NCBI RefSeq assembly: GCF_006438965.1
Contig: NZ_RCZM01000001.1
Coordinates: 869,097-933,096 of the forward strand
Direction of reading: 5' to 3'
DNA from: Pedococcus bigeumensis
GTDB lineage: Bacteria > Actinomycetota > Actinomycetes > Actinomycetales > Dermatophilaceae
Length of the DNA stretch: 64,000 bases
Shown here: piece by piece, positions 1 to 64,000 of the stretch
Layout: each line of letters starts with the position of its first letter
Position numbering within the stretch: position 1 is the stretch's first letter
Translations under genes and position numbers: made by a program
Notes under the pieces: model-generated
Database searches by the model: none
What the model saw: only the letters and a program-made list of their open reading frames with translations
What the model was told of the DNA's origin: nothing

Positions 1-1
1 G

Positions 2-100
2 GTCGAGGAGCTGCTCGGCACCGACTGGGACGCCGAGCTGGAGCCGTTCCGGTATGCCGGCGACGGGGCTCCCGTGCGCTGGTTGCACAAGGTGGGCTGA
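2..100 (+). CDS. DUF3145-like protein, C-terminal fragment
   Basis: This is the last 32 residues and TGA stop of a protein that enters from the left edge. The visible end reads ELEPFRYAGDGAPVRWLHKVG in part, which matches my recollection of the C-terminus of DUF3145. That family is a roughly 165-residue actinobacterial protein of unknown function, commonly found near the fabD-fabH-acpP-fabF genes. The fatty acid synthesis operon lies 1.5 kb to the right and supports the assignment. The call rests on a remembered motif and short sequence only; the N-terminus is outside the window. A GTATGCCG octamer lies inside it and encodes Tyr-Ala. Confidence 0.6.
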   Translation, partial: VEELLGTDWDAELEPFRYAGDGAPVRWLHKVG

Positions 101-195
101 CCGGGTCCGACCGGCCGCGCTGACCTGCAGGTTTGGAGGGTTACGTCGGATGTTGGGTATTCTCGCCCGCTGACCGACCAACTCTGGAGGAACGT

Positions 196-819
196 GTGAC
201 CCGCCCCAACCTCATCGTGGGGGCGCTGGCCGCAGTCTGTGTGGGGATGCTGCTGTGGTGCGCCCGACTCATCCTGGCCGCCGATCTGCCTCTCGGCGCC
301 CACGTCGCGGCGTGGGTTCTCTGGGCAGTGGCGACCGTGGCTGTCGTGACCCTGATGGCCTACCTGCGTGAGTTCCTGACGCACCGGCAGGTCGTCGGAC
401 GCGAGGCGAGCTGGAAGCCACTGCCGTCCCTCGTACTGCTCTGGATCGGTGGGCTGACGGCGTTGCTGTCCTTCGCCTTCATCCTGCCCGACAAGGCCGC
501 GTCGGATGGTGCGGAAGGGCCGACCAAGGCCAACACGTCCCTGACCGGACAGGCGGTCACGTCAACACCGTCGACCGCCACGCCTGCGCCGGGCGCCGCG
601 CGACAGGCCTCGTCGACGACCTCGTCGCGGTCGGTGTCGTCGCGCACCGTGCCGCCGGCGCCTGTCTCGACGACCGCTCCGCGGTCCACCCCGACAGGGG
701 GCGCGACAGCCTCGCGGACGTCGACAACGACGACGCCGTCGACCACCACGTCGCCGCTCATCGACATCCACATCCTGCCGCCCCCGGCCAAGCCGACCAC
801 ACCGCCGGGGCGCGGCTAG
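196..819 (+). CDS. Small membrane protein with Thr/Ser/Pro-rich tail, unknown function
   Basis: The protein has 207 residues. I chose the GTG at 196 because GGAGG sits five bases upstream; an earlier in-frame ATG at 133 has no such site. Three hydrophobic segments lie at about residues 5-28, 35-57 and 75-96. They are followed by a roughly 100-residue low-complexity tail rich in Thr, Ser, Ala and Pro, ending in PPPAKPTTPPGRG. The layout suggests a three-helix membrane anchor with a flexible extended tail, possibly exposed outside the cell and glycosylated. I do not recognise a family. It stands alone between the DUF3145-like gene and a convergent acetyltransferase. Confidence 0.65.
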   Translation: MTRPNLIVGALAAVCVGMLLWCARLILAADLPLGAHVAAWVLWAVATVAVVTLMAYLREFLTHRQVVGREASWKPLPSLVLLWIGGLTALLSFAFILPDKAASDGAEGPTKANTSLTGQAVTSTPSTATPAPGAARQASSTTSSRSVSSRTVPPAPVSTTAPRSTPTGGATASRTSTTTTPSTTTSPLIDIHILPPPAKPTTPPGRG

Positions 820-926
820 GGACCCTCCTCAGGATGCCTACGACCCACCGACCGCGCACGGTGACGGGAGTAGGGCGGCCCGCCTGAAGGTGCTGGAGCA
901 GCGGTGCACAGTCCGGTTCGCCACCA

Positions 927-1591: not shown

Positions 1592-2836
1592 TCAGATCGA
1601 GGTGAAGACCACCGCGACGTTGTGACCGCCGAAGCCGAACGAGTTGTTGAGCGCGGCGATGTCGCCGTCCGGCAGCTTGCGGGCCTCCCCGTGCACGACG
1701 TCGAGCTTGATCGCGGGATCGAAGTCGTCCAGGTTGATCGTCGCCGGGGCGAGCCGGTGGTGCAGCGCCAGGATCGTGAAGACGCCCTCGAGCGCGCCGG
1801 CCGCACCGAGCAGGTGCCCGGTCATCGACTTCGTGGCACTGACCGGCATACCGTCGGCGTCGTCGCCGAAGGCGCGCCGGATGGCGTTCGACTCGGCCAC
1901 GTCACCGACGGGGGTCGAGGTGGCGTGGGCGTTGACGTGCACGATGTCCTTGGGAGTCAGGCCGGCTCGCTCGACCGCCTCGACCATGGCACGGGACGCG
2001 CCAGCACCTTCGGGCTCGGGCGCCGCGATGTGGTGCGAGTCGGAGGACATGCCCACGCCACCGATCTCGGCGTAGATCTTGGCGCCACGGGCCTTGGCGG
2101 CTTCGTACTCCTCGAGCACGATCACCGCGGCACCCTCACCGAGGACGAACCCGTCACGACCGGTGTCGTAGGGGCGGGAGGCGCGCTCGGGGTCGTCGTT
2201 GCGGGTCGACAGCGCCTGCATGGCGGCGAAACCGGCGATGGGCAGCGCGTGGACCGCGCCCTCGGTGCCACCGGCGACGGCGATGTCGGCGCGACCGTTG
2301 CGGATCATCTCGTAGGCGTAACCCATCGCCTCGAGCCCGGAGGCGCAGGCCGACACCGGGGTGTGGGCTCCGGCGCGGGCGCCGATGTCGAGCGAGACCG
2401 CAGCGGAGGAGGCGTTGGGCATGAGCATGGGGACGGCGAGCGGGAAGACCCGGCGCGGACCCTTCTCGCGCAGGTTGTCCCACTGGTCGAGCAGCGTCCA
2501 CACGCCGCCGATGCCGGTGCCGATGCAGGCCGCGAGGCGCTCGGGGTCGACCTCGGGGGAGCCGGCGTCGGCCCAGGCCTCGCGGGAGGCGATGAGGGCG
2601 TACTGGGCACTGGGGTCGAGTCGGCGGACCTCGACCTTGGTCAGCACGTCCAGCGGCTGGGTGTGGATGGTCGCGGCGAACTTCACCGGGAGCTCGTACT
2701 TCTCCACCCAGTCGAAGGGCATGGTCTTGGCGCCCGACCGTCCGGCCAGGATGGCGTCCCACGTCTCGGGGACGGTGCCGCCCACGGGGGTGGTGGCTCC
2801 GAGGCCTGTGACGACAACGCGTCGTTCGGCGGTCAT
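1592..2836 (-). CDS. fabF: 3-oxoacyl-ACP synthase II (KAS II)
   Basis: This enzyme condenses malonyl-ACP with a growing acyl-ACP in the cytosolic type II fatty acid synthase. The 414-residue length is normal for FabF. The catalytic triad is visible: Cys164 in SACASG, His304 in NAHATSTPVGD and His341 in GHLLGAAGA. I start at the ATG at 2836, where MTAERRVVVTG matches family N-termini; an in-frame ATG at 2908 would add 24 unrelated Ala/Pro-rich residues. GGAG lies 11 bases upstream, a long spacing. It is the last gene of fabD-fabH-acpP-fabF, 112 bases after acpP. A GTATGCCG octamer lies in the coding sequence near 1845. Confidence 0.96.
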   Translation of the reverse strand: MTAERRVVVTGLGATTPVGGTVPETWDAILAGRSGAKTMPFDWVEKYELPVKFAATIHTQPLDVLTKVEVRRLDPSAQYALIASREAWADAGSPEVDPERLAACIGTGIGGVWTLLDQWDNLREKGPRRVFPLAVPMLMPNASSAAVSLDIGARAGAHTPVSACASGLEAMGYAYEMIRNGRADIAVAGGTEGAVHALPIAGFAAMQALSTRNDDPERASRPYDTGRDGFVLGEGAAVIVLEEYEAAKARGAKIYAEIGGVGMSSDSHHIAAPEPEGAGASRAMVEAVERAGLTPKDIVHVNAHATSTPVGDVAESNAIRRAFGDDADGMPVSATKSMTGHLLGAAGALEGVFTILALHHRLAPATINLDDFDPAIKLDVVHGEARKLPDGDIAALNNSFGFGGHNVAVVFTSI

Positions 2837-5416: not shown

Positions 5417-6613
5417 TCACACCCCTGTGCGAGGCCTCGGTGTCGCGCTGAACGGTCGGCTGAGCCTGCCGAGAGCCAGGGCGATCCGCACGGTGTGGGC
5501 GTCGTGCGGGTCGGTGAGCTGGTAGCCCGTGAGGTCGGCGATCTTGCCCAGGCGGTAGCGCACCGTGTTGGGGTGGACGAAGAGCACGCGGGCAGTCCCC
5601 TCCAGCCCACCCCCTGTCTCGAGGTAGGCCGATGCCGTCTCCAGCAGGCCGCCGCTGCTCGACGAGAGGGGGTGCCAGATGCGGTCGAGCAGGAGCGCCC
5701 GGGCGGGGGCGTCACCCACGAGGACCCGCTCCGCGAGCAGGTCGTCGGCGGTCACCGGCCGGGGCGCGCCGGGCCAGGCGTGGGCGCAGGACTGGCCGGC
5801 CAGGGCGGCCCGAGCGGATCGGCCCGCTGCGAAGAGGTGGGGCACGGTCGGCCCCACCACCAGTGGTCCGTCGCCGAAGTGGTCGGCGACCGCACGGGCC
5901 GCCGCCATCGGGTCGTCGACGTTGCCGAAGATGCACACCAGCCGGCGTCCCTGGACGGCTGCGAGCGTGTCCACCCCGGCGCGTTCGGCTGCCCGGCGGA
6001 GCCCGTCCACGACTCCCGCTGAGCCTCCCGGAGGCGTGCTGCCCGCGATCACGGCAACCCTGGTCGTGGACCCCCAGCCGAGCGCCGCCGCGCGCGACTG
6101 CATCGAGTCGTCGGCCTCGCCACGGAGCACCGCGTCGACGACCAGGCCTTCGAGGCGGGCGTCCCACGCGCCACGCGCCTCGGCGGCGTGGGCGTAGACC
6201 TCCGCGGCCGCGAAGGCGATCTCGCGCGAGTAGCGCAACACCGACTCTCGCAGTGCCTGCTCCTCACCGGGCTCGGCAAGAGCCGTCGCGTCCTGCTCGA
6301 CGACGTCGACGACCGAGCGCACCAGGTCGAGGGTCTGGCGCAGGGTGATCGAGCGGGTCAGCTCGCGAGGCGCGGTGCCGAACACGTCGGCGGTGACCGG
6401 CGTCTGGTCGCCGCCGTCCCGCAGCCACGCGATGAACGCCGCGATGCCCGCCTGGGCGACCAGGCCGACCCAGGAGCGGTCCTCCGCGGAGAGCGAGCGG
6501 TACCAGTCGTGCGTCGCCTCCACCCGGCGCGTCGCAGCCGACGAGAGCTCACCGGCGGACCGCTCGACCCGCTGCAGGGTGGCGGTCGAGGTGCTGACGC
6601 GGGTGGACGGCAT
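5417..6613 (-). CDS. fasR: PucR-family transcriptional regulator, FasR-like
   Basis: This 398-residue protein has the PucR layout: a long N-terminal region, a GGDEF-like central domain and a C-terminal helix-turn-helix. The HTH lies around residues 340-385 and contains VLFVHPNTVRYRLGKI, the hallmark of the PucR C-terminal domain. In Streptomyces the gene at the same place, fasR, activates fabDHPF. The position immediately before fabD supports the same role here, which remains inference. The start ATG at 6613 has a TAGACT -10 only six bases upstream, so the mRNA is probably leaderless. The start codon lies inside a GGTATGCCG octamer. Confidence 0.85.
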   Translation of the reverse strand: MPSTRVSTSTATLQRVERSAGELSSAATRRVEATHDWYRSLSAEDRSWVGLVAQAGIAAFIAWLRDGGDQTPVTADVFGTAPRELTRSITLRQTLDLVRSVVDVVEQDATALAEPGEEQALRESVLRYSREIAFAAAEVYAHAAEARGAWDARLEGLVVDAVLRGEADDSMQSRAAALGWGSTTRVAVIAGSTPPGGSAGVVDGLRRAAERAGVDTLAAVQGRRLVCIFGNVDDPMAAARAVADHFGDGPLVVGPTVPHLFAAGRSARAALAGQSCAHAWPGAPRPVTADDLLAERVLVGDAPARALLLDRIWHPLSSSSGGLLETASAYLETGGGLEGTARVLFVHPNTVRYRLGKIADLTGYQLTDPHDAHTVRIALALGRLSRPFSATPRPRTGV

Positions 6614-6619
6614 ACCGGC

Positions 6620-6625: not shown

Positions 6626-6702
6626 TTTGTATGCCGCCCACAACCGGGGGTGGTCGTCGCGGGAAGCCGACCATCCCGGAAAGCTGCTGGTGGCGCGTGG
6701 TT

Positions 6703-7590: not shown

Positions 7591-7647
7591 GGCCTCATCC
7601 TGCCCCAGCCGGCGCGCTATCCCAACCGAAAGCCCTACCCCAACAGA

Positions 7648-7687
7648 AAGGTATGCCGCCCACTCGGCTGAGTGGGCGGCATACCTT
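7648..7687 (-). terminator. aceE terminator built from two inverted GTATGCCG motifs
   Basis: An 18-bp perfect stem (7648-7665 with 7670-7687) has a four-base GGCT loop. Each arm contains AGGTATGCCGCC, so the hairpin is formed by two copies of the window-wide octamer facing each other. It sits 43 bases after the aceE stop and before the epimerase gene. Confidence 0.85.
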
Positions 7688-7729
7688 GTCGTGCAAGGGC
7701 TTTCGTCACATCGGCATGGCCAGCCAGGG

Positions 7730-11358: not shown

Positions 11359-12575
11359 GGCGAGGGTATGCCGGTCCGCGCCTCGAGCGCGGACGCGGAG
11401 ATCCGCACGTGGCGGATGGCCCGGCGGTGGTAGGTGTAGGCCACGTGGACCGTCCCCGTCGCGTCCTGGCAGACCGACGGGTAGCTGAGCTCGCGGTTCA
11501 CGCCGTCGCGCGAGTTGTTGCTCAGGCAGTAGCCGTCACCGTCCTCGAGGACCCACCGCACCGGCCAGGTCTGTCCGTCGTCCGAGGAGACCGCGAGCGT
11601 CAGCGGCGCCCGGGGGGCTCCCCAGAAGGCACCACGGACCTCTGCCAGCTCTTCGGGCGTGGCGGCCTGCGGCTCGGCAACCGGGGAGTCGCTGATCCCG
11701 TGGTCGTCGATCTCGTCGTAGAGCGACACGCGGCGGGCAACGGCGTCGAGCCGGCTGCTCTCGTTGAGCACCAACCCGATTCGGCGGTCGGACAGCGATG
11801 CTGCCTGGATCGAGGAGTTGTTGTTCGGCAGCTCCGTGGGCTGCGGCTGAGACCACTCGAGACCGTCGTCGGAGACGCTCCGGTAGACGTGGTCGGCCCA
11901 CCGACTGCGGTAGTACGCGGCATACCTGCCGTCGCTGAGGGGGACGATGCTCATGTGGACGCAACCCGTCGAGCCGGGCACCTCCCGCTCCGCCCACGAG
12001 ACGCCTTCGTCGGTCGACACCCACACGCTGCTCGTGTCGCTGTCACCGACCCATTTCTCGCCCGGCACGCGGACGCAGGTGAACGTCGGCAGCACCCAGG
12101 TCCCGTCCGGGAGGACGACAGGGGGCTGGCGGACGAACACGCCACCGCGGTCGCTCTCCAGCAGGGTGCGCGACTCGCTCCACGTGCGCCCGTGGTCCCC
12201 GGAGGTCCGGACCCGCACGAACGAGGTGTCCTGGTCGCCGGCGTGCTGGGCCGTGTGCAGGAGCCACAGCAGGCCATCGGGGGCCGGGAAGAGGAGGGGG
12301 TTCTGCTCCGAGCGGGTGGGGTCGCCCGAGAGCCGCACCGGCTCGGTCCACACGTCGGCTCCCTCCTCCAGCCGGGAGAACCACACGTCGATGTCGGCCA
12401 CACCCTCCTGGGTGCCCCCGAACCACACACAGCCGAGGCTGCCGTCGCCGAGCACCGTGAGGTTGGCCGCGTGGGACTGCACCGTCGGCGCCGGGAGGAA
12501 GGTCTCCTCGAGGCCGTCCTCAGTCTCCCGGGCGCGCAGCACACCGTCCGTGACGAGGGTGGCGGGCGCGCTCAC
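11355..12575 (-). CDS. BNR/Asp-box protein of the sialidase superfamily
   Basis: The protein has 406 residues and four Asp-box motifs: SGDHGRTW (125-132), STDEGVSW (187-194), SVSDDGLEW (233-241) and SSDDGQTW (330-337). These mark a beta-propeller of the BNR_2 (neuraminidase-like) group. There is no signal peptide, so it should act in the cytosol, unlike secreted sialidases. I do not see the N-terminal Arg-Ile-Pro motif of true sialidases. A hydrolase or lyase acting on an imported glycoside or sugar acid is plausible, but the function is open. ATGA overlaps link it to the genes on both sides. The C-terminal Gly-Ile-Pro uses a rare ATA codon inside the GTATGCCG motif. Confidence 0.75.
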   Translation of the reverse strand: MSAPATLVTDGVLRARETEDGLEETFLPAPTVQSHAANLTVLGDGSLGCVWFGGTQEGVADIDVWFSRLEEGADVWTEPVRLSGDPTRSEQNPLLFPAPDGLLWLLHTAQHAGDQDTSFVRVRTSGDHGRTWSESRTLLESDRGGVFVRQPPVVLPDGTWVLPTFTCVRVPGEKWVGDSDTSSVWVSTDEGVSWAEREVPGSTGCVHMSIVPLSDGRYAAYYRSRWADHVYRSVSDDGLEWSQPQPTELPNNNSSIQAASLSDRRIGLVLNESSRLDAVARRVSLYDEIDDHGISDSPVAEPQAATPEELAEVRGAFWGAPRAPLTLAVSSDDGQTWPVRWVLEDGDGYCLSNNSRDGVNRELSYPSVCQDATGTVHVAYTYHRRAIRHVRISASALEARTGIPSP

Positions 12576-13376: not shown

Positions 13377-14354
13377 CTATCGGTTGTAGGCGGGCATCGG
13401 ACCGGCCAGGGTGGCACCGACCTCGTCGCACGCGGCGACGACGTCGACAGGCAACGGGCCGCGTTCGGCGGCAGCGATGTTGGCCCGCAGCTGGTCGGGC
13501 TTGGACCCGCCCAGCAGGACGGACGTCACCAGGGGTCGCGAGAGCAGCCAGCGCAGGGACAGCTCGGGCAGCCCCACGCCGGCGTCGGAGGCGATGGTGG
13601 ACAGCGCGTCGACCGCCTCGAAGAGGCTGCGGTTCCAGTAGCGGTCCCGGTACATGCTCGACAGCGCGGACGAGCCGAACCGACCGTCGCCCGGGTCGGC
13701 GTCGAAGCTGTGCCGACCGGTGAGCAAGCCACCGCCGAGCGGGTTGTAGACGATGGTGGCGAGCTCGTGGGTCGTGGCGTACTCGGCGTACTCGTCCTCG
13801 ACCCGGCGGGCGACGAGGTTGTAGAGCTGCTGGGCGACGACGGGACGTGGGGCGCCCACCCGTTCACAGGCCACCGTCAGGTCGGCGATCTGCCAGGCGG
13901 CGAAGTTGGACACACCGACGGCCTTGGCGAGCCCCGCGGACACCACCTCGGCGAGGGCCTCTGCGGTCTCGTCGACGGTGACGGTGCGGTCCGGTTGGTG
14001 CAGGTAGAAGAGGTCGACGTGGTCGGTCCGGAGCCGGCGCAGGCTGGCCTCGAGCGAGGACCGGATCCCCTTGCGGGACAACAGTGGGTTGCCTCCGGCG
14101 TCACCGGCGTAGATACCGGCCTTCGTGGCCAGGGACACCTGCTCACGCCGGCCTGCGAGGACCTCGCCGAGGATCTCCTCGGTGCGCGTCGCGGCATACC
14201 CGTTGGCGGTGTCGAGGGAGGTGAGGCCGGCCTCGAGGGCGGCATCGACCATGGCCCTCGACGTCGTCGCGTCGGCGGTGTCGCCGAAGGTCATGGTCCC
14301 GAGGACCAGCTGTGGCAAGGGTGTCGGCAGACCAGGGACGTCGGTGGACCTCAT
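13377..14354 (-). CDS. Aldo/keto reductase
   Basis: The 325-residue protein is a complete aldo/keto reductase barrel. MRSTDVPGLP leads into LVLGTMTFG, then the catalytic Asp and Tyr in SLDTANGYAATRTEE, the Lys in SLATKAG and the His in YLHQPDRT. These enzymes interconvert carbonyls and alcohols with NADPH. I start at the ATG at 14354, which overlaps the upstream ABC ATPase stop by four bases; the same frame is open upstream but runs through that ATPase gene. Together with the SDR it gives this operon two oxidoreductases, suggesting sugar or aldehyde conversion. Confidence 0.9.
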   Translation of the reverse strand: MRSTDVPGLPTPLPQLVLGTMTFGDTADATTSRAMVDAALEAGLTSLDTANGYAATRTEEILGEVLAGRREQVSLATKAGIYAGDAGGNPLLSRKGIRSSLEASLRRLRTDHVDLFYLHQPDRTVTVDETAEALAEVVSAGLAKAVGVSNFAAWQIADLTVACERVGAPRPVVAQQLYNLVARRVEDEYAEYATTHELATIVYNPLGGGLLTGRHSFDADPGDGRFGSSALSSMYRDRYWNRSLFEAVDALSTIASDAGVGLPELSLRWLLSRPLVTSVLLGGSKPDQLRANIAAAERGPLPVDVVAACDEVGATLAGPMPAYNR

Positions 14355-15241: not shown

Positions 15242-16179
15242 GGTCGGGGCCCTCCCTTGGTGGCGGGTATGCCGGCCTGCTCGGGCCTGGTCGTGGGTGC
15301 GGCGGGTTCGGCAGCCGGGTCCGTCGCGGGTGCGGCGGTCTCGGCAACAGGGTCGATGTAGTCCGGGTGGTCGGGGTCCTCGGGGTCGTCCCACGCGCCC
15401 AGCTCGGGGATGGCGGCGAGGAGGTTGCGGGTGTACTCGTGCTGCGGGTTGTCGACCACCTGCTCCACGTCCCCGTCCTCGACGAACCGTCCCCGGTGCA
15501 TGACGTGGATCCGGTCGCTCATGAGCCGGGCCACGCCCAGGTCGTGCGTGATCAGCAGGACCGCTACCCCGGTGCGCTCCTGCATCTCCAGGAGGAGGTC
15601 GAGGATGCCGGCCTGCACGGTCACGTCGAGGGCCGAGGTGGGCTCGTCGGCGACGATGAGACGCGGCTCGGTGGACAGCGCCATCGCGATGAGCACCCGC
15701 TGGAGCATGCCGCCGGAGAGCTCGTGCGGGTAGGACTTGACCCGTCGCTCGGGCGCACTGAGGTGGACCTGCCGGAGCAGCTCGAGGGCGCGCTCCCTGG
15801 CCTGCGCCTTGGACAGCGACCCGTGGGCGTGCCGGATGGCCTCGACCATCTGCTGGCCGATCGTCGCGATCGGGTTGAGCGCCGTCATCGGGTCCTGGGG
15901 GATGAGGGCCACCGAGCGGCCCCGGATCCCACCGATGTGCTTGCGGGTCCCCACGACGTCCTGGCCGTCGATCTGGGCCGATCCGGAGATGACGGCGAGG
16001 TCGTCGGGCAGCAGTCGTAGCAGGGCCATCGCGGTGGTCGACTTGCCGGAGCCCGACTCACCGATGATGGTGACCGTCTCGCCGGCGTCGATGTCGAAGC
16101 TGACACCGTCGACGGCACGGATCACGCCGCGGGGGGTGATCAGCTCGACCACCAGGTCACTCACGGTCAGGACGGCCAT
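15238..16179 (-). CDS. Peptide-type ABC importer ATPase, DppD/OppD-like
   Basis: The 313-residue ATPase has Walker A GESGSGKST, a signature SGGMLQRVLIAMALS and Walker B LIVADEPTSALD. The C-terminal tail of about 45 residues is rich in Pro, Ala and Thr and poorly conserved-looking. The start ATG at 16179 shares one base with the permease stop (TGATG). It is the first of the pair of ATPases of the importer. A Gly-Ile-Pro near the C-terminus is encoded with ATA within a GTATGCCG octamer at 15265. Confidence 0.92.
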   Translation of the reverse strand: MAVLTVSDLVVELITPRGVIRAVDGVSFDIDAGETVTIIGESGSGKSTTAMALLRLLPDDLAVISGSAQIDGQDVVGTRKHIGGIRGRSVALIPQDPMTALNPIATIGQQMVEAIRHAHGSLSKAQARERALELLRQVHLSAPERRVKSYPHELSGGMLQRVLIAMALSTEPRLIVADEPTSALDVTVQAGILDLLLEMQERTGVAVLLITHDLGVARLMSDRIHVMHRGRFVEDGDVEQVVDNPQHEYTRNLLAAIPELGAWDDPEDPDHPDYIDPVAETAAPATDPAAEPAAPTTRPEQAGIPATKGGPRP

Positions 16180-23842: not shown

Positions 23843-23848
23843 AATGTA
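23843..23848 (-). promoter_or_regulatory. Leaderless -10 of fdhD
   Basis: TACATT on the minus strand, six bases before the GTG at 23836. A GTATGCCG octamer overlaps its upstream side. Confidence 0.55.
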
Positions 23849-23944
23849 TGCCGCGCCCTCACCTGCAGCCGCGGCGGGAGGGCAGGTGGCGTGGCGACCG
23901 ACCCGAGCGGGCCGGGCGTCCGAACCGGGCGGGGTCGTGGCGGA

Positions 23945-39579: not shown

Positions 39580-39583
39580 GCCC

Positions 39584-39589
39584 TATCCT
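39584..39589 (+). promoter_or_regulatory. -10 element of rnpB
   Basis: TATCCT is followed by seven bases and the first base of the P1 stem of RNase P RNA. The -35 position would fall in the hairpin loop at 39561-39566. Confidence 0.55.
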
Positions 39590-39596
39590 TGGCGGC

Positions 39597-40685: not shown

Positions 40686-40768
40686 CGCGAGGTGCGAGCG
40701 GTCGGTGCAGGCCCGGCATACCCCGTCCTGGCGTGGACCGGCCCGACCATCGAGCCTGATTTGGAGAC

Positions 40769-45100: not shown

Positions 45101-45107
45101 ACGGTGG

Positions 45108-47145: not shown

Positions 47146-47151
47146 ACCGTA
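47146..47151 (-). promoter_or_regulatory. Leaderless -10 of fgd
   Basis: TACGGT on the minus strand, six bases from the ATG at 47139, abutting a GTATGCCG octamer. Confidence 0.6.
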
Positions 47152-47173
47152 TGCCGCGTGGCAGGCTCGGTGC

Positions 47174-48514
47174 GTGGCCACCTCGCTCCCAGGACGCACC
47201 GACCTCCAGCTCGCCGACCTCCAGCTCACCGATGACGAGCGGCGGCTCGTCGGGTCGGTCGACGTCGACGCCCTCGTCGCAGACCTCGCCGACCTCGTCG
47301 CGTTCGCACCGGTGGGCGGCAGTGCTGGCGAGGTGGGCGTCCAGCGCTGGTGCGCAGACCGCCTGCGCGGCCTGGGCCTCGACGTGGCGGAGTGGGACAT
47401 CGACCTGTCCGACGAGGCGGCGCAACCGGACTTCCCGGGCATGGAGGTCGAGCGGAATGCCCTCGTGGGGGTGGTGGCCACCTGGGACGCTGACGGCGGC
47501 GAAATCCTCGATGCGACACCGGCGCTCGTCCTCTGCGGGCACACTGATGTGGTGCCCGTCGAGGACCCCGCCCGATGGCGAACCGACCCGTTCCAGCTGG
47601 CCGTGACTGATGGCCTCCTCAGTGGTCGAGGCGTCTGCGACATGCTCGGGGGTGTGGTCGCGGTGCTGGCGGCGGTGCGTGCCCTGAAGGCGTCGGGCAC
47701 GGGGTTGGTGCGTCCCTTGGCGGTCCACCTCGTCAGCGGTGAGGAGGACGGTGGCGTCGGCGCCTTCGCGACCCTTCGTGCCGGGCACCTCGGTGCGGCC
47801 TGTGTCATCGCCGAGCCGACCGGAGGCGCGGTCATCCCCGCGAACGCCGGGTCGCTCACCTTCCGGCTCGAGGTCGACGGGCGGGCGGCGCACGGGTCGA
47901 CCCGCACCAAGGGGGTGAGCGCCATCGACCACCTGGCCGCCCTGCAGTCCGTCCTGCGCGAGCTCGAGGCGGGGCGCAACGCGGCGCCCCCAGAAGCGTT
48001 CGCCCACCTCGACCTCGCGGCGCCGATCTCGATCGGGATCATCCGCTCCGGCACGTGGGCGAGCACCGTCCCCGACCTGCTGGTGGCCGAGGGCAGGTAC
48101 GGCGTGCTGCCGGGTGAGCCGCTCGACGCCGCCAGGTCGGTGTTCGAGGATGCAGTGTCGGGCCTGGGGGAGCGCGACCCGTGGCTGCGCGACCACCCGG
48201 TCCGCGTCCGCTGGCCGGGCGGTGCCTTCGCCTCCGGCGCGCTGCCCGACGGACACCCGCTGCTCGCCGAAACCCTCGCCGCAGGGACTGCGGTGGGGCC
48301 CACCTCGCCGCGGGTCGAGGGGGCGCCGTACGGCTCGGACCTGCGGCACTACGCCGCGCACGGCATACCCACCGTGCAGTTCGGCCCGGGCGAGCTGCGC
48401 GCAGCTCATGCCGTCGACGAGTCGGTGAGCCTCAGCGAGGTCGTCGCCTGTGCTCAGGTGTATGCCGTGCTCGCGCTGCGGCGGTGCGGTGCACCGCCGC
48501 AGCGGGCGGGCTAG
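47174..48514 (+). CDS. M20-family metallopeptidase (ArgE/DapE-like)
   Basis: The 446-residue protein has the M20 zinc motifs: LCGHTDVVP (His and catalytic Asp), [10 protein letters not shown] (bridging Asp), SGEEDGG (catalytic Glu and ligand) and a late His in [11 protein letters not shown]. It deacylates or cleaves a small peptide or acylated amino acid; the substrate is not evident. I use the GTG at 47174, which lies 34 bases from the divergent fgd start. The long upstream open frame is antisense to fgd. Its stop TAG overlaps the opposite-strand stop of the next gene within CTAG. Confidence 0.88.
48476..48502 (-). terminator. Hairpin inside the M20 gene end, terminator for the protease gene
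   Basis: A 12-bp perfect stem CTGCGGCGGTGC/GCACCGCCGCAG with a GGT loop lies in the last codons of the M20 gene and just beyond the protease stop on the minus strand. It could stop transcription from either side. Confidence 0.55.
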
Positions 48515-53216: not shown

Positions 53217-53363
53217 TCGCGTGCGCAGGGGATGCGCCGCGCCGGCGCCCGGTATGCCGCCTGGTCTGGCAGCCCGCGGCCGTTCCGAGTGGTGCCTTCA
53301 CCCGCAGCGGGGAAGACTCGCGGGAGGTCGCCGACCAGCGGTGGCCCCGGTGATGGAGGACTG

Positions 53364-56483: not shown

Positions 56484-58034
56484 GTGAACTACGACGACGT
56501 CGTCATCGGTGCAGGGCACAACGGGCTCACGGCCGCGGCATACCTCGCTCGGGCTGGTCGACGGGTGCTGGTCCTCGAGGCCGGTGACCACGTCGGGGGT
56601 GCAGCGGTCTCGGCCCAGGCGTTCCCGGGGGTCGACGCGCGCCTGTCGCGCTACTCCTACCTGGTCTCGCTGCTGCCTCGGCAGGTGATCACCGACCTCG
56701 ACCTCGACGTGCGGCTCATCCGGCGGCGCTACTCCTCCTTCACGCCCGTTCCGGCGCAGCCCACCACCGGCCTGCTCGTCGACCACGGCGACGGCGACGC
56801 GACGGCGGCCGGCTTCGCCGCACTCACGGGAGGGCCGCGGGAGCATGCCGCGTGGCAGGACTTCTACGGGCGCGTGCAGCACCTCGCGCAGCAGGTCTTT
56901 CCGACCGTCCTCGAGCCGTTGCGCACCGAGGCCGATGTCGCGGGCCTGGTGGGGGACGACCGGCTCTGGGAGGCCCTCGTCCGACGTCCGCTGGGGGAGG
57001 TGCTCGAGGCCGAGTTCGGCGACGACACGGTGCGCGGCATCGTCGCCACCGACGCCCTCATCGGCACCTTCGCCTCGATGGGTGCGGCCGACCTGCGCCA
57101 GAACGTCTGCTTCCTCTACCACCTCATCGGAGGCGGAACCGGGGACTGGGATGTCCCCGTCGGCGGGATGGGTGCGGTCACCGACGGGCTGGCTCGCGCG
57201 GCCGTCCAGGCTGGGGCCGAGATCCGCACCGGCACAAGGGTTCTCGCGGTCGACCCCGACGGGCTGGTCACCTGGGAGGGTGGGTCGGCCCGCGCCGGCA
57301 CCATCCACGCCGCGTGTGCGCCCACGGTCCTCAACACGCTCCTCACCGCGGCCGGTGCCGACCCCGTCGCGACCGAGCAGGCGCCAGAGGGCGCGCAGCT
57401 CAAGGTCAACATGCTGCTGTCGCGTCTCCCGCGGCTGCGTGACGAGACCGTCGACCCCGCGGCGGCGTTCGCCGGCACCTTCCACGTCAACGAGGGCTAC
57501 ACCCAGCTGCAGGACGCGTATGCCGCCGCTGACGCCGGCCGGGTGCCGCAGCTGCCGCCGTGCGAGATCTACTGCCACAGCCTGTCGGACCGCTCGATCC
57601 TCGGGCCGGAGCTCGCCGCCACTGACGCGCAGACGCTCACCCTGTTCGGGCTGCACCTGCCGGCCCGGCTGTTCCGCGGGACGACCGCGGAGCACGACGC
57701 GGTCAAGGACCTCGCCCTGGCGCGCACCCTCGACTCGCTGAACTCGGTGCTGGCCGAACCCATCCAGGACGTCCTGCTCCGCGACCCCGACGGGGCGCTG
57801 TGCCTCGAGGCGCGGACCCCCGTCGAGCTCGAGGCGGACCTCGGGCTGCCGGGGGGCAACATCTTCCACCGCTCGCTGCAGTGGCCGTGGGCCGAGCGCG
57901 AGGCCGAGGTCGGCACCTGGGGGGTCGAGACGCCCCACGAGAAGGTGCGCATCGCCGGTGCCGGCGCGCGACGCGGTGGCGGGGTCAGCGGCATACCGGG
58001 TCACAACGCGGCCATGTCGGTCCTGACGGGCTGA
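56484..58034 (+). CDS. FAD-dependent oxidoreductase, phytoene desaturase-like
   Basis: The 516-residue flavoprotein starts with an FAD Rossmann motif VVIGAGHNGLTAAAYLARAG and LVLEAGDHVGG. A C-terminal FAD segment near GIPGHNAAMSVL closes the fold. This is the amine oxidase/phytoene dehydrogenase superfamily, but no carotenoid genes are nearby, so the substrate is unclear; many family members are carotenoid-unrelated desaturases or isomerases. It is a single gene, leaderless by its -10. A Gly-Ile-Pro near the end uses ATA within a GTATGCCG octamer. Confidence 0.85.
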   Translation: MNYDDVVIGAGHNGLTAAAYLARAGRRVLVLEAGDHVGGAAVSAQAFPGVDARLSRYSYLVSLLPRQVITDLDLDVRLIRRRYSSFTPVPAQPTTGLLVDHGDGDATAAGFAALTGGPREHAAWQDFYGRVQHLAQQVFPTVLEPLRTEADVAGLVGDDRLWEALVRRPLGEVLEAEFGDDTVRGIVATDALIGTFASMGAADLRQNVCFLYHLIGGGTGDWDVPVGGMGAVTDGLARAAVQAGAEIRTGTRVLAVDPDGLVTWEGGSARAGTIHAACAPTVLNTLLTAAGADPVATEQAPEGAQLKVNMLLSRLPRLRDETVDPAAAFAGTFHVNEGYTQLQDAYAAADAGRVPQLPPCEIYCHSLSDRSILGPELAATDAQTLTLFGLHLPARLFRGTTAEHDAVKDLALARTLDSLNSVLAEPIQDVLLRDPDGALCLEARTPVELEADLGLPGGNIFHRSLQWPWAEREAEVGTWGVETPHEKVRIAGAGARRGGGVSGIPGHNAAMSVLTG

Positions 58035-59479: not shown

Positions 59480-59504
59480 CGGCACCGCCTGCGTGCTCCG
59501 GTAT

Positions 59505-59530
59505 GCCGCCCGCGCACCTTCGCGGGCGGC
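59505..59530 (+). terminator. Terminator of glnA, carrying one GTATGCCG motif
   Basis: A 10-bp stem GCCGCCCGCG/CGCGGGCGGC (59505-59514 with 59521-59530), six-base loop. The left arm extends out of a GGTATGCCGCC motif, but the right arm lacks the matching copy. Confidence 0.7.
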
Positions 59531-59559: not shown

Positions 59560-62500
59560 GTGACCTCCGGCCGCCTTGTCTCGCAGACGGCGACCCTGGC
59601 CCGACTCGGGTTCGCCGACCCGCCCCGGGCCGTCCAGCTACTGGGCGACCCGGCGCTGACCGGCCTCATCGACCCGCTCGACGACCTGTTCAGCGACGGC
59701 CTGCCCGATGCCCTCGGTGCGGTGGCCGACCCGGACCTGGCCCTGCTCAGCCTGGTGCGCCTCATGGAGTCGCTGCGAGCCTCTGCGCCACAGCGGCGCG
59801 ACGTGGAGTCCGGGGCCGGCACCGAGGTGTCCGGTCTGGTGGCCGCGCTACGGCACCCCGGCCGAGCGCGTGACCGGCTGATGGCCGTCCTGGGTGCCTC
59901 CACCGCCCTCGGTGACCACCTCGTCGCCCACCCCGAGCACTGGCGCAGCGTCGCGGACGCGCGACCGCGCACGCCCGACGAACGCATCCACGAGCTCGTC
60001 GAGGCGGTGCGTGCCCCGGGCGCGCACACGGCATACGACGCACTGCGGATCGGGTATCGACGCCAGCTGCTGGGTATCGCAGCCCTCGACCTCACCTCAG
60101 GTGACCCCGAGCTGGCCCTTCCCGAGGCCGCGGCGGCACTCGCGGACCTGGCCGAGGCGGCCCTCGAAGCGGCGCTCGTCATCGCGCGGGCGGAGATGGG
60201 GGAGCAGGCCGAGCTCTGCGACTTCGCGGTGATCGGCATGGGCAAGACCGGTGGTCGCGAGCTCAACTACGTCAGCGACGTCGACGTCATCTTCGTGGCC
60301 GAGCCGAAGGAGGGTGTCGAGGAGGCCAGCGCCATCGCGGCGGCCACGGGGCTGGCCACCCACCTGATGCGGGCCTGCTCCACCTCGACCGGGCAGGGGA
60401 CCCTGTGGCCGGTGGACGCCGCGCTGCGACCCGAGGGCAAGAACGGCCCGCTGGTGCGGACCATCGAGAGCCACCGCGCCTACTACGAGCGCTGGGCCAA
60501 GACGTGGGAGTTCCAGGCGCTGCTCAAGGCCCGGCCCGTTGCCGGGGACCGAGCGCTCGGTGCCGCGTACATCGCCGCCGTCAACCCGATGGTCTGGGGC
60601 GCGGCTTCTCGCGACAACTTCGTCGAGGACGTGCAGGCCATGCGCAGGCGGGTCGAGCAGCACGTGCCCGCGGGTGAGGCCGAACGACAGCTCAAGCTCG
60701 GACCCGGGGGGCTGCGCGACGTGGAGTTCAGCGTCCAGCTGCTCCAGCTCGTCCACGGTCGGTCGGACGACGCCCTGCGCTCGGGCACGACGCTGGAGGC
60801 GCTGGACGCGCTGGCGCGCGGTGGGTACGTGGGCCGCGAGGACGCCGCGACCCTCGACGCGTCCTACCGGCTGCTGCGCACGCTCGAGCACCGGATCCAG
60901 CTGTTCCGGCTGCGTCGCACCCACCTCATGCCAACCGCGGACGCCGATTTGCGTCGTCTCGGCCGCGCCCTCGGGCACCGCTCCGACGCCGCGAAAGCCG
61001 TTGTCGCGCAATGGCAGCAGCAGGCCCGCGAGGTCCGGCGGATCCACGAACGCCTCTTCTACCGGCCGCTGCTCGCTGCGGTCGCCCGGTTGAGCTCGAC
61101 CGATGCCCGACTGGCGCCCGAAGCCGCCAAGGAGCGGCTTGCTGCGCTGGGCTTCCGAGACCCGGGTGGGGCGATGCGCCACCTCGAGGCGCTGACCGCT
61201 GGGGTGAGCCGGCGAGCGGCCATCCAGCGCACCCTGCTGCCCGTGATGCTCGGCTGGTTCGCCGACGAGGCCGATCCCGACGGCGGGCTGCTCGCGTTCC
61301 GCAAGGTGAGCGAGGAGCTGGGGTCCACCCACTGGTACCTCAGGCTGCTGCGCGACGAGGGCTCGGCGGCCGAACGCCTCGCCCACACCCTGGCCCGAAG
61401 CCGTTATGCCGCAGACCTGCTCGTCGGTGCGCCGGAGTCGGTCGCGATGCTCGGCGAGTCTGGTGGGCTCACCCCCACGTCACGCGACGACCTCGTCCGC
61501 AGGATGACCGCGGCTGCGGGACGGCAGGACGATGCGGACAAGGCGGTCCGGGCGGCGCGGAGCATCCGCAGGCAGGAGCTCTTCCGGATCGCGGTGGCCG
61601 ACCTTGCCGGAAGCCTCGACCTCGCGGGGGTGGGGCGGGCGCTGACCGACCTGACCGCCGCCCTCGTCGAGGCGGCGCTCCAGGTGGCCATCCGCGTCGT
61701 CGAGGAGAAGCACGGCCCGCTGTCGACCAGGCTGCTGGTCATGGGGATGGGTCGGCTCGGTGGCGGCGAGATGGCCTACGGGTCGGACGCCGACGTGCTG
61801 TTCGTGCACGAACCCCACGAGGGGGCCGACGAGGCGGCGGCCCAGGAGCAGGCCCTCGAGACCCTGCAGGAGCTGCGTCGCCTGCTGGCCTCGGCGGGAC
61901 CCGACCCGCAGCTGGGCCTGGACGCCGACCTACGACCCGAGGGGAAGAGCGGTCCGCTGGTGCGCAGCCTGGCCAGCTACCGCGAGTACTACCGGCGGTG
62001 GTCGCTGACCTGGGAGTCGCAGGCCCTGCTGCGGGCTGCGCCCCTGGCCGGTGACTTCGAGCTCGGGGCGCGCTTCGTCGAGCTGATCGACCCGCTGCGG
62101 TGGCCCCAGGAAGGCCTCACCGACCAGCAGGTCCGGGAGATCCGCACCCTCAAGGCCCGGATGGAGGCCGAACGGCTGCCCCGAGGTGCCGACCCCAAGG
62201 CCCACTTCAAGCTGGGCAGGGGTGGGCTGTCGGACGTGGAGTGGACCGTGCAGCTGCTCCAGATGTGCCACGCCCACGCCGTGCCCGACCTGCGGACGAC
62301 GAGCACCTTGCCGGCGCTGGCCGCCGCCGAGAAGGCGGGGCTGGTCTCCGCCGACCATGCCGCGGCCCTGCGGGACGCATGGTCCTTCGCTTCCCGGCTG
62401 CGCAACGCCTCGGTGCTCTACCGCGGCCGGCCGGTCGACAGCGTGCCGTCCGACCTGCGGGTCGCCGACGGGGTGAGCCGCATCCTCGGTGGGGAGCCGG

Positions 62501-62589
62501 GCAGCGGTGCAGATCTTGCCGAGGCCTACCGCCGAGTGGCCCGTCATGCGCGTACCGTGACGGAGTTCAACTTTTACGGTTCAACCTAG
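59560..62589 (+). CDS. glnE: Glutamine synthetase adenylyltransferase/adenylyl-removing enzyme
   Basis: GlnE adds AMP to, or removes it from, GSI-beta glutamine synthetase in response to nitrogen. The 1009-residue protein has two nucleotidyltransferase domains: GMGKTGGRELNYVSDVDVIFV in outline at about residue 225 (adenylyl removal) and GMGRLGGGEMAYGSDADVLFV in outline at about residue 728 (adenylylation). Both retain their Asp-x-Asp pairs. Length is normal. The target GlnA1 is not in the window and lies perhaps beyond the right edge. The start is GTG at 59560, leaderless. Confidence 0.95.
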   Translation: MTSGRLVSQTATLARLGFADPPRAVQLLGDPALTGLIDPLDDLFSDGLPDALGAVADPDLALLSLVRLMESLRASAPQRRDVESGAGTEVSGLVAALRHPGRARDRLMAVLGASTALGDHLVAHPEHWRSVADARPRTPDERIHELVEAVRAPGAHTAYDALRIGYRRQLLGIAALDLTSGDPELALPEAAAALADLAEAALEAALVIARAEMGEQAELCDFAVIGMGKTGGRELNYVSDVDVIFVAEPKEGVEEASAIAAATGLATHLMRACSTSTGQGTLWPVDAALRPEGKNGPLVRTIESHRAYYERWAKTWEFQALLKARPVAGDRALGAAYIAAVNPMVWGAASRDNFVEDVQAMRRRVEQHVPAGEAERQLKLGPGGLRDVEFSVQLLQLVHGRSDDALRSGTTLEALDALARGGYVGREDAATLDASYRLLRTLEHRIQLFRLRRTHLMPTADADLRRLGRALGHRSDAAKAVVAQWQQQAREVRRIHERLFYRPLLAAVARLSSTDARLAPEAAKERLAALGFRDPGGAMRHLEALTAGVSRRAAIQRTLLPVMLGWFADEADPDGGLLAFRKVSEELGSTHWYLRLLRDEGSAAERLAHTLARSRYAADLLVGAPESVAMLGESGGLTPTSRDDLVRRMTAAAGRQDDADKAVRAARSIRRQELFRIAVADLAGSLDLAGVGRALTDLTAALVEAALQVAIRVVEEKHGPLSTRLLVMGMGRLGGGEMAYGSDADVLFVHEPHEGADEAAAQEQALETLQELRRLLASAGPDPQLGLDADLRPEGKSGPLVRSLASYREYYRRWSLTWESQALLRAAPLAGDFELGARFVELIDPLRWPQEGLTDQQVREIRTLKARMEAERLPRGADPKAHFKLGRGGLSDVEWTVQLLQMCHAHAVPDLRTTSTLPALAAAEKAGLVSADHAAALRDAWSFASRLRNASVLYRGRPVDSVPSDLRVADGVSRILGGEPGSGADLAEAYRRVARHARTVTEFNFYGST

Positions 62590-62594
62590 GAAGG

Positions 62595-62600
62595 TACGGT
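62595..62600 (+). promoter_or_regulatory. Leaderless -10 of the MFS transporter gene
   Basis: TACGGT, six bases from the ATG at 62607. Confidence 0.6.
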
Positions 62601-62606
62601 CGGCGC

Positions 62607-64000
62607 ATGGCCACGGGACGGGACGACTCCATCACAGTCCCCTCGTTCGCCGAGGTGCTTCGCGCCCCGGTGTTCCTGCCGGTCTTCATCGTCGCGACCC
62701 TCTCCACCTGGGGCGACTACATCGCCCGCATCACGGTGGCGGCAGTGGTCTTCTCCTGGACCGGTTCGGCGCTCGCCACGGCCGCCACGTTCGCCGTCTC
62801 GCTCGTGCCGAGCATCCTCGGCCGCGCGTTGCTCTCGCCCCTGTGCGACCGGGTGGCACCCCGGGTCTGCCTCGTGGCAACCCACCTCGTCCGTGCGGTG
62901 CTGGTCGGGGTGCTGATCCTCGTCGTGGCCACGACGCACTCACTCTGGTTGGTGCTGACCCTCGTCGCGGTGCTCGAGTTCGCGGGCGGCCCTGCCGTGA
63001 CTGCGGGCCAGATGCTGCTGACCGACATCTTCCCGGACCGCCGGCTGTATGCGCGGGCGTTCGGCCTCACCACCCTTGCGGCGCAGGTCAACCAGGCGGT
63101 CGGCCTCGCGATCGGTGGCGTGGTGGTGGGCCTGATCGGGGACACCAAGACACTGTTCCTTGACCTGGCCACGTTCGTGGTCGGCGCGGTCATCCTCATC
63201 GTGGTCAAACCGCCGAAGTCCCTGGTGAAGCCGGACGACTCACCGACGGCCAACCTGCTCGGCGAACTGGCCCAGGGCTGGCGCCAGATCCGGTCCAACC
63301 GGGTCCTCACCTACATGCTGTGGCTGTCACTGGCCAGTGCACTGGCCATCGCCGCACCAGAGGCGGTGGCGCTGCCGTACGCCGCCCAGCACAGCCCGTC
63401 GCAGTCCTGGGGCGGCCTGCTCATGGCTGCCCCGATCCTCGGATCCGTCGTCGGGCTGCTGTTCATCGGCAGGCTCCCCGCCGAACGGCAGTCGGCCCTC
63501 GTCATGCGCCTGGCGCTGCTCACACCGCTCCCCCTGCTCGTGACGATCTTCGAACCGCCCCTGGCAGTCGTCTGGACCGCGTGGTTCCTCAGCGGCGCAC
63601 TGCAGAGCTACATGCTTCCGCTGCAGGCCGCATTCACGCTGCTCGTCCCCACCGCCATGCGCGGCCGCGTCTTCGGTCTCGCCGGTGCCCTGTCGGTGGG
63701 CGTCACGGGTGCCTGCTTCCTGGCGGCCGGCTGGGTCTCCGAACACACCACCCCGGCCGCCTCGGTCGGCATCTGCGCGGTCGTGACCCTCGGGGTGCTC
63801 GTGCTCCTCGCGGCGCGCTGGCCCAAGGAGGAGCTGGCCGGCCGTGTCGAGGCCACCTTCACCGGCGAGCAGGCGGGCACTGACCGCGACCACGGGGTCG
63901 GCCGGCCGACCGAGCACGACGGGCTGGGCGACCTGGCCGGCCTGGACGCAGTCGAGGAGCACACCCCGTTGGGTGTCCCTGACACCGGTCGGTCCGGTGG
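62607..64000 (+). CDS. MFS transporter, 3-prime end cut by the window
   Basis: The frame from the ATG at 62607 runs open to the edge, 464 visible residues. About ten to twelve transmembrane helices are seen, from VFLPVFIVATLSTWGDYIARI near residue 23 to AASVGICAVVTLGVLVLLAARW near 390. A hydrophilic Gly/Asp/Glu-rich C-terminal tail then begins and is still open. The half with LSPLCDRVAPR has the MFS loop 2-3 region. It looks like an MFS efflux protein of the MFS_3/EntS type; the substrate is unknown. It begins 17 bases after the glnE stop but has its own leaderless promoter. Confidence 0.85.
   Translation, partial: MATGRDDSITVPSFAEVLRAPVFLPVFIVATLSTWGDYIARITVAAVVFSWTGSALATAATFAVSLVPSILGRALLSPLCDRVAPRVCLVATHLVRAVLVGVLILVVATTHSLWLVLTLVAVLEFAGGPAVTAGQMLLTDIFPDRRLYARAFGLTTLAAQVNQAVGLAIGGVVVGLIGDTKTLFLDLATFVVGAVILIVVKPPKSLVKPDDSPTANLLGELAQGWRQIRSNRVLTYMLWLSLASALAIAAPEAVALPYAAQHSPSQSWGGLLMAAPILGSVVGLLFIGRLPAERQSALVMRLALLTPLPLLVTIFEPPLAVVWTAWFLSGALQSYMLPLQAAFTLLVPTAMRGRVFGLAGALSVGVTGACFLAAGWVSEHTTPAASVGICAVVTLGVLVLLAARWPKEELAGRVEATFTGEQAGTDRDHGVGRPTEHDGLGDLAGLDAVEEHTPLGVPDTGRSG

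Follow-up and report, generated by a model that had tools for sequence, protein, structure and literature searches.

The octamer GTATGCCG is strongly over-represented in the genome of Pedococcus bigeumensis and in many genomes of its family, and we regard it as a candidate DNA-uptake 'self' tag of that family, a reading to which we assign a probability of about 0.6. The word is non-polar and conserved at single sites, occurs in thousands of copies, often in hairpin pairs, and appears as dialects or is replaced by another word according to lineage.

Over-representation of the octamer in genes and gaps

The window, a 64,000-nucleotide stretch of P. bigeumensis DNA, contains 39 exact copies of GTATGCCG, 20 on the forward and 19 on the reverse strand (the latter read as its complement CGGCATAC), compared with 1.5 expected from an order-3 Markov model (Table 1). 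A previous sequence-only reading had put the number at about 39, with about 20 on each strand and about two expected, and all 19 positions that it named were correct to within 2 bases. The whole genome holds 2,551 copies (1,264 and 1,287 by strand) versus 74 (35 and 39) for the reversed word, far over expectation, so that the claimed over-representation holds genome-wide. In 264 kb of contiguous sequence from the same genome, 165 exact copies were found versus 7.2 expected. Chance or base composition as the source of the excess was ruled out by the Markov counts in the window and in the 264 kb. The 24 one-mismatch words totalled 45 in the window versus about 42 expected; in the 264 kb they totalled 196 versus 169.0, with CTATGCCG (13 versus 3.6) and GTAGGCCG (35 versus 17.3) raised and GTATGTCG missing (0 versus 6.6). 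In the window, the base 5' of the word was G in 23 of 39 copies and never A, and the base 3' of it was C in 20, T in 10, G in 9 and never A.

Table 1 Copies of GTATGCCG and associated features in the window
Feature	Position	Strand	Remarks
GTATGCCG copy	52..59	+	
GTATGCCG copy	1844..1851	-	
GTATGCCG copy	6608..6615	-	faces copy at 6629
GTATGCCG copy	6629..6636	+	faces copy at 6608; weak hairpin, z -1.9
Terminator-like hairpin	7640..7695	-	two facing GTATGCCG copies; fold -40.3 kcal/mol, z -8.5
GTATGCCG copy	7651..7658	+	hairpin arm
GTATGCCG copy	7677..7684	-	hairpin arm
Pyruvate dehydrogenase E1 gene	7730-10561	-	Pfam; hairpin 7640..7695 directly past its 3' end
GTATGCCG copy	11366..11373	+	
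GTATGCCG copy	11918..11925	-	
GTATGCCG copy	14192..14199	-	
GTATGCCG copy	15267..15274	+	
GTATGCCG copy	21442..21449	-	
GTATGCCG copy	23425..23432	-	
GTATGCCG copy	23846..23853	+	
GTATGCCG copy	24021..24028	+	
GTATGCCG copy	25590..25597	-	
GTATGCCG copy	25707..25714	+	
GTATGCCG copy	29737..29744	-	
GTATGCCG copy	29983..29990	+	
GTATGCCG copy	32105..32112	-	
GTATGCCG copy	32473..32480	+	retained in 9/10 congeners
GTATGCCG copy	35051..35058	+	
GTATGCCG copy	36312..36319	-	
Hairpin	39538..39592	+	two facing GTATGCCG copies; fold -34.5 kcal/mol, z -4.7
GTATGCCG copy	39548..39555	+	hairpin arm
GTATGCCG copy	39570..39577	-	hairpin arm
RNase P RNA gene	39600-39997		hairpin 39538..39592 lies between it and gene ending at 39467
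GTATGCCG copy	40714..40721	-	
GTATGCCG copy	41379..41386	+	
GTATGCCG copy	42980..42987	+	
GTATGCCG copy	45095..45102	-	retained in 9/10 congeners
GTATGCCG copy	45954..45961	+	
GTATGCCG copy	46587..46594	-	
GTATGCCG copy	47149..47156	+	
GTATGCCG copy	48361..48368	-	
GTATGCCG copy	48460..48467	+	
GTATGCCG copy	53252..53259	+	
GTATGCCG copy	56536..56543	-	
GTATGCCG copy	57518..57525	+	
GTATGCCG copy	57989..57996	-	
GTATGCCG copy	59501..59508	+	
GTATGCCG copy	60029..60036	-	

Since the coding copies in the window number 30, versus 2.4 after synonymous shuffling, GTATGCCG is a sequence-specific signal at the DNA level, as had been proposed from the window alone. The same shuffle left 18.0 of 193 copies in 20 loci of motif-rich genera (g4, g14 and g48, which have mixed words, were excluded), and gave 2.8 versus 2 observed in 18 loci from eight motif-poor genera. 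Codon usage or a protein motif as the cause is thereby excluded. The word occupies five of the six frames in the window and all six in related loci, and it is also found in gaps and within unrelated flanks. Because of this, neither a single repeated protein motif nor one mobile element, the two causes on which the earlier proposal would have foundered, explains the excess; a single mobile carrier is excluded by the unrelated contexts. Prophages and plasmids were uninformative: the portal family PF04860 was present in just 1 of 72 motif-rich genomes, and 22 kb of the window, compared with plasmids, matched 138 records, none covering 80%, those listed being partial, single-gene matches. Depending on which of two gene callings was used, 12 of the 39 sites in the window were intergenic, or 9 with one more on a gene edge, a share that depends on the simple GC-position score by which genes were called. 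No clear gene-end bias was apparent in an informal comparison based on our own gene calls.

Orientation, pairing and conservation of single sites

Local strand counts of GTATGCCG in 42 loci were homogeneous (heterogeneity chi2 32.8, p 0.84), indicating no replication polarity, and the 264 kb were split 82/83 between strands. This absence of strand skew excludes a polar motif of the KOPS or FtsK-polarising type, and the local counts strengthen the strand-balance argument that the sequence-only reading had raised against both KOPS and Chi. Neighbouring copies no more than 100 bp apart in the pooled loci faced in opposite directions in 32 cases versus 3 in the same direction; the 32 include 3 overlapping GTACGCCG palindromes in g35 and a few pairs that share one position across related genomes. 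Within 60 bp in the 264 kb, 8 pairs were opposite and none were same-facing. Many close facing pairs fold as hairpins, and two stable ones lie directly past genes in the window. Read directly, GTATGCCG differs from its own complement and is thus no palindrome of the HIP1 kind. Its spacing was near random (CV 0.85 versus 0.93, with 11% of random draws equally low).

Single GTATGCCG sites are more conserved than their surroundings, clearly so in eight of ten congeners. Among aligned sites, 77 of 123 were retained in the ten congeners, the corresponding rates being 20-33% over all octamers and 23-38% over those containing three A/T. In the eight clear cases, retention of the orthologous word was 2.0-4.1 times that of other octamers. 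The exceptions, G143 and G146, each kept 3 of 11 sites versus 20-26% for other octamers. Retention tends to drop with the copy number of the genome.

Distribution, dialects and an unrelated word

GTATGCCG-rich genomes (617-4,724 copies each) make up 105 of the 186 genomes of one family, which we infer to be the Dermatophilaceae of GTDB, and are spread over 30 of its 53 genera. Another 66 of the 186 carry it at background level (7-149 copies), some of them bearing another word, and in 273 sampled genomes from other families of the order it reached at most 177 copies. Sixteen 20-kb loci drawn from nine further families of this order, four loci shorter than 3.4 kb having been dropped, contained no comparably frequent word save one, a single repeat-like word in L214. 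Word-free genomes also occur inside word-bearing genera (G114, G084 and G008), so that slow decay alone is not an easy explanation.

The one-letter dialect GGATGCCG reached 3,949, 3,816, 4,480 and 2,195 copies in G178, G017, G034 and G036, and between 260 and 1,239 in the remaining 61 genomes among the 65 counted. A second one-letter dialect, GTATGCGG, was present in 511-1,204 copies in four g13 genomes and in 4-459 in the other 61. Both exceeded their synonymous shuffles (GGATGCCG in g51, 24 versus 4.8; GTATGCGG in g13, 15 versus 2.2). The word CGAAGGGG, unrelated to GTATGCCG, had 1,553-3,180 copies in all 13 g27 and g36 genomes tried and 84-386 in 45 others, and g27 and g36 form one clade in the ComEC tree (support 100/99). 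On this tree, which is built from ComEC alone with 45 rows and has a weak deep split, the word states, with GTACGCCG counted as one state, required 13 changes versus 20.0 with shuffled labels. These results indicate that the dialects follow phylogeny. GTACGCCG also exceeded its synonymous shuffle, in g35 (53 versus 9.8), g7 (24 versus 7.2), Nocardioides (87 versus 26.4) and Kribbella (42 versus 8.8); this excess may be a codon-pair effect, and GTACGCCG was excluded as a dialect from the conclusions, its sites being kept in the pooled pair and strand counts.

A candidate uptake tag and its rivals

The sequence-only reading had offered uptake, nucleoid organisation or an immunity tag as functions. 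Uptake is the best fit of the three because the testable sequence hallmarks of DUS and USS, the 'self' tags with which two unrelated bacterial groups select the DNA that they import, as set out in passages of PMC12616744 and PMC3630211, were found, namely copy number, lack of polarity, inverted pairs, dialects and conservation; the other two remain as rivals. According to sections of PMC3630211, the DUS of Neisseriaceae occur in thousands of copies, with inverted pairs at terminators, phylogenetic dialects and some members without any, and an excerpt of PMC2397512 describes strong conservation of single DUS sites. GTATGCCG resembles them in its thousands of copies, inverted pairs, dialects, word-free relatives and conserved sites, but it is shorter and belongs to another phylum, a type IVa pilus was not found in most genomes of its family (PilM in 7 of 186), no ComP is known there, and one clade of the family has an unrelated word. 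Cells of this family are monoderm, unlike those of Neisseriaceae. The string ATGCCG is shared by GTATGCCG and the DUS ATGCCGTCTGAA, which we do not take as kinship. For the USS of Pasteurellaceae, parts of the literature describe hairpin pairs (PMC12616744), no general orientation bias with a gene-end bias in Pasteurellaceae (PMC2346458), and two word types in one family (PMC3630211). GTATGCCG is similar in copy number, hairpin pairs, lack of orientation bias and two word types per family, but the word is unrelated and has no clear gene-end bias. Pasteurellaceae are diderm and have a type IV pilus. HIP1 of cyanobacteria, a short word repeated across many genomes of a group, is a palindrome, unlike GTATGCCG, which is non-palindromic and forms facing pairs.

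The host genome encodes a Flp pilin, Tad-type proteins, a Tad locus, comEA and comEC, and a DNA-import machine is thus predicted. In these genes it resembles the actinobacterium Micrococcus luteus, whose natural transformation depends on Flp/Tad and involves comEA, comEC and Tad parts, as described in part of PMC4322843; the terms 'uptake sequence' and 'sequence-specific' are absent from the main text of that paper and of PMC8467076. Among the papers listed in literature searches, none described a word of the GTATGCCG type in actinobacteria, although the search on the octamer itself says little. In the family, ComEC was detected in 180 of 186 genomes and the T2SSE ATPase in 185 (183 above cut-off), and a comEA match was found in all 45 comEC loci searched. 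Under an uptake tag, the Tad/Flp-pilus and ComEA-ComEC machinery would include a surface receptor with a preference for word-bearing DNA, and this DNA would be imported and recombined more often. Alleles with the word would then spread via transformation by molecular drive, and those without it would be replaced. If receptor specificity drifted, the genome would follow by the same drive, giving rise to dialects, and where transformation was lost or became unspecific, copies would decay.

Several observations count against an uptake tag. ComEA, ComEC and T2SSE are found just as often in word-free genera, and gene content thus gives no tie between word and uptake; the distributions of ComEC and of the T2SSE ATPase rule out that either one, by being present or absent, determines whether a genome has the motif. 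PilM was found in only 7 of 186 family genomes and is absent from the host genome; judged by this, a route of the Neisseria type, through a type IVa pilus and its minor pilin ComP, seems not to be used here. The near-random spacing, the lack of a clear gene-end bias in contrast to Pasteurellaceae, the retention in G143 and G146 hardly above that of other octamers, and the loss of the word in three genomes within word-bearing genera weigh in the same direction.

Among the rivals, a nucleoid or chromosome-maintenance site, bound about every 1.7 kb by a cytoplasmic protein of drifting specificity that would organise or condense the chromosome, is consistent with a word that is even on both strands, without polarity and conserved at single sites. 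We consider it unlikely: it predicts neither the excess of hairpin-forming facing pairs, nor the background counts in 66 of the 186 genomes, nor the clade in which CGAAGGGG has taken the place of the word. A Chi-like recombination hotspot would suit an asymmetric octamer in many copies, and Chi words are lineage-specific. For RecBCD itself this is excluded by the missing replication-strand bias and by RecC (PF04257), whose absence from the host genome adds to the earlier argument against Chi. RecC is also absent from 10 of the 11 genomes of the genus, all motif-rich, and present in word-lacking genomes of g27 (15 of 16), g36 (3 of 3) and g38 (4 of 4), but also in motif-rich g14, g41 and most of g42, so that neither its presence nor its absence follows the word. 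With this, and with replication polarity absent from the 42 loci, a hotspot read by another helicase-nuclease such as AdnAB or AddAB appears improbable.

We judge equally improbable a methylation or defence 'self' mark, in which a solitary or phase-variable methyltransferase or a BREX-like system would spare the modified word. Non-palindromic words can be methylation targets and drift in specificity would yield dialects, but to our knowledge restriction targets are seldom twenty-fold enriched and conserved by site. A mutational or repair bias that generates a word without function would affect genes and gaps on both strands alike; it is very improbable, as the one-mismatch words are barely raised next to the word itself, the word is retained at orthologous sites, and a bias would not make facing pairs with long matching stems. 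Tetrasphaera phage TJE1 (58% GC), with 2 copies in 49 kb versus 0.6 expected, weighs little against it.

With odds slightly better than even, the uptake reading may be extended to a third, independent origin of sequence-specific uptake, the first in Gram-positives: a Tad-pilus system of an actinobacterial family reading GTATGCCG, no fewer than two one-letter dialects whose copies number in the hundreds to thousands, G036 and G087 as bilingual genomes between dialects, and one clade switched to CGAAGGGG. If true, an uptake tag can evolve without an outer membrane or a type IVa pilus, and the 186 genomes, with their losses, dialects and one full swap, would be material for the study of genome rewriting. 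It would also point toward the receptor through which a Tad transformation system takes hold of DNA, and these bacteria may become easier to transform if donor DNA is given the right octamer.

Abundance, placement and conservation of GTATGCCG

The window contains 39 exact copies of the octamer GTATGCCG (20 plus-strand, 19 minus-strand), where an order-3 Markov model predicts 1.5; this agrees with the approximately 39 copies, about 20 per strand, claimed in the sequence-only reading. The core is sharp: in the window the 24 one-mismatch words together number 45, where about 42 are expected, and A never adjoins the word. The over-representation holds genome-wide, as that reading had proposed to check: 1,264 + 1,287 copies were counted in the P. 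bigeumensis genome (4.22 Mb, 13 contigs), versus 35 + 39 of the reversed word, the same letters read backwards, used as a control. In 264 kb of contiguous sequence round the window, 82 + 83 copies were found against 7.2 expected, near-randomly spaced and with strands roughly balanced in twelve 22-kb bins. One-mismatch words were in slight excess there (196 versus 169.0 expected), and CTATGCCG and GTAGGCCG were raised most.

Coding sequence in the window carries 30 copies, compared with 2.4 under synonymous codon shuffling within each gene. The corresponding values were 193 versus 18.0 in 20 loci of motif-rich genera (those with many copies) and 2 versus 2.8 in 18 loci of motif-poor genera (those at background). 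These results support the earlier suggestion of a DNA-level signal; the word is written at the DNA level. It occurs in all six reading frames in the 20 motif-rich loci, and the window shows five of them. Among frames in the gene's own sense, the most frequent in the 20 loci was xxG-TAT-GCC-Gxx (78/190), and that with the word on the opposite strand was xCG-GCA-TAC (53). By our gene calls, intergenic gaps hold 2.7 times their share of copies in the window and 1.4 times in the 20 loci.

When 20 kb with 15 sites was aligned to ten congeners at 78–84% identity, 77 of the 123 aligned sites were retained exactly; in the same alignments, retention was 20–33% for all octamers and 23–38% for octamers with three A/T. 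Retention tends to track a genome's copy number: 10/11 sites were kept in G141 (3,986 copies) and 11/14 in G145 (2,537), and 3/11 each, barely above control, in G146 (836) and G143 (625). Lost but alignable sites differ by substitutions, indicating that copies are gained and lost by point mutation, not insertion.

Strand balance, facing pairs and hairpins

Across 42 loci, in which GTATGCCG was pooled with the words of genera g13, g51, g35 and g7, the spread of strand counts did not exceed that of random coin tosses (chi2 32.8, p 0.84), bearing out the strand balance that had been argued against KOPS and Chi. Among neighbours at most 100 bp apart in these loci, 32 were in opposite orientation and 3 in the same. 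Many opposite-facing pairs are hairpin arms whose stems extend beyond the word, and similar hairpins are built from GGATGCCG (g51) and GTACGCCG (g7). The near-palindromic element in the table is dispersed, with more copies elsewhere in the genome.

Facing pairs, hairpins and other features of the window
Position	Feature	Context	Fold
6608/6629	Facing pair		weak fold, z -1.9
7640-7695	Hairpin	just past pyruvate dehydrogenase E1 gene end	-40.3 kcal/mol, z -8.5
39538-39592	Hairpin	between gene end and RNase P RNA gene	z -4.7
38388-38437, 39491-39537	Near-palindromic ~50-bp element	round CTTCCGGATATCCGGAAG	
50658-53153 (+), 53805-56270 (-)	Two nearby genes for InhA-type M6 metallopeptidases	convergent, both without GTATGCCG	

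Distribution, dialects and a swapped word

GTATGCCG was counted in all 186 genomes (53 genera) of the family, which we take to be GTDB Dermatophilaceae. In 105 genomes of 30 genera 617 to 4,724 copies were present, with 150–599 in 15 genomes and fewer than 150 in 66. Reversed-word counts were themselves elevated in some genera, and the lowest word-to-control ratio among the 105 genomes was 2.5; a probable cause is that the bases preceding the word partly duplicate its letters in those genera. An order sample of 297 genomes included 24 of the family; the other 273, from 19 families, carried 0 to 177 copies, the genome with 177 having 135 control copies, and where numbers were not tiny the word stayed within about threefold of the control (88 versus 29 in G195). 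Among 80 named loci, copies per 21 kb were 20 in Lapillicoccus, 12 in Humibacillus, 1 in Ornithinicoccus and 16 in Flexivirga, presumably a member of the same GTDB family, whose locus also has 8 GTATGACG; the Phycicoccus endophyticus locus had none in coding sequence. The genomes G114 (g42), G084 (g33) and G008 (g4) lack the word although their congeners have hundreds to thousands, and no clear substitute was found in 20–40 kb of each; loss, a genus assigned too wide or an unseen dialect could account for this.

In 20 to 80 kb stretches, another octamer was prominent in some genera lacking GTATGCCG, and none clearly so in g2, g11, g38 and g46, among others. Genome-wide, GGATGCCG reaches 3,949 copies in G178, 3,816 in G017, 4,480 in G034 and 2,195 in G036, while the remaining 61 of the 65 genomes covered have 260–1,239; G036 also carries 1,217 GTATGCCG and is therefore bilingual. 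The four g13 genomes have 1,204, 511, 878 and 988 GTATGCGG, followed by G087 (459, with 1,581 GTATGCCG), G113 (334) and the remaining 59 genomes (4 to 156). Position six of the word can be A, C or G in g14 and g48. An unrelated word, CGAAGGGG, is present in 1,553–3,180 copies in 13/13 g27 and g36 genomes tried, against 84–386 in 45 others; in g27 and g36 GTATGCCG is at background. CGAAGGGG has no strand bias, and its coding copies number 60 versus 12.0 under synonymous shuffling. It often lies inside GCGAAGGGGG (loci L016, L017, L021 and L131-L133).

On a ComEC tree, g27 and g36 form one clade (support 100/99), and six word states require 13 changes versus a mean of 20.0 for shuffled labels. 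The GTATGCCG state lies on either side of the deepest split, which is weak, suggesting an old word with repeated losses.

GTACGCCG, one letter off GTATGCCG, is the top octamer in 4/6 Nocardioides loci (L063, L069, L098, L112; 17–23 per 21 kb versus 2–3 expected) and is enriched in Kribbella (L053, L055). Hairpin pairs with long stems were absent from these loci, so a codon-pair effect is possible. In 20 kb of one genome of another family of the order (L214, family f8), AAGGGCTT / GGGCTTCG words are strongly enriched (6–10 copies versus 0.1–0.7 expected).

Alternative readings and a proposed uptake tag

A mutational bias creating the word is unlikely, because one-mismatch words are only slightly raised and sites are retained across congeners. 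Polar motifs are opposed by the strand balance. RecBCD Chi was rejected, RecC being absent from P. bigeumensis and from 10/11 genomes of its genus; RecC is present in motif-poor g27, g36 and g38 and in some motif-rich genera, and thus does not track GTATGCCG. Binding by a nucleoid protein, reading by a resection enzyme other than RecBCD and a methylation mark are each possible, at lower odds than the favoured reading, an uptake 'self' tag.

Passages on the uptake sequences of Neisseriaceae (DUS) and Pasteurellaceae (USS) describe copy numbers in the hundreds or thousands, terminators carrying inverted repeats, and dialects in each family (PMC12616744), absence from some members and congruence with phylogeny (PMC3630211), and sites conserved well above background (PMC2397512). 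Like them, GTATGCCG has hundreds to thousands of copies, inverted pairs, dialects (one-letter variants abundant in some genera), word-free members and conserved sites. A review passage places sequence-specific uptake in these two families (PMC5031613). No such tag in actinobacteria appeared among the literature matches listed, most subscription papers and bioRxiv lying outside the scope; matching on the octamer itself covered 20 of 3,142 papers and carries little weight.

ComEC was found in 180/186 family genomes, the T2SSE ATPase, of the family that includes the Tad ATPase, in 185/186 (183 over the cut-off), and a comEA match in 45/45 comEC loci searched. P. bigeumensis itself has comEA, comEC, Flp pilin and Tad-type proteins; Micrococcus luteus transformation reportedly requires such genes (PMC4322843). 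In the P. bigeumensis Tad locus (L193:10785-12773), a T2SSF (TadB-like) protein and a von Willebrand A domain share one open frame. The import parts are equally present where GTATGCCG is absent, and are therefore compatible with an uptake tag without proving it. Under the uptake-tag reading, a receptor would recognize the word, word-bearing DNA would be preferred, and uptake together with recombination may have driven its spread.
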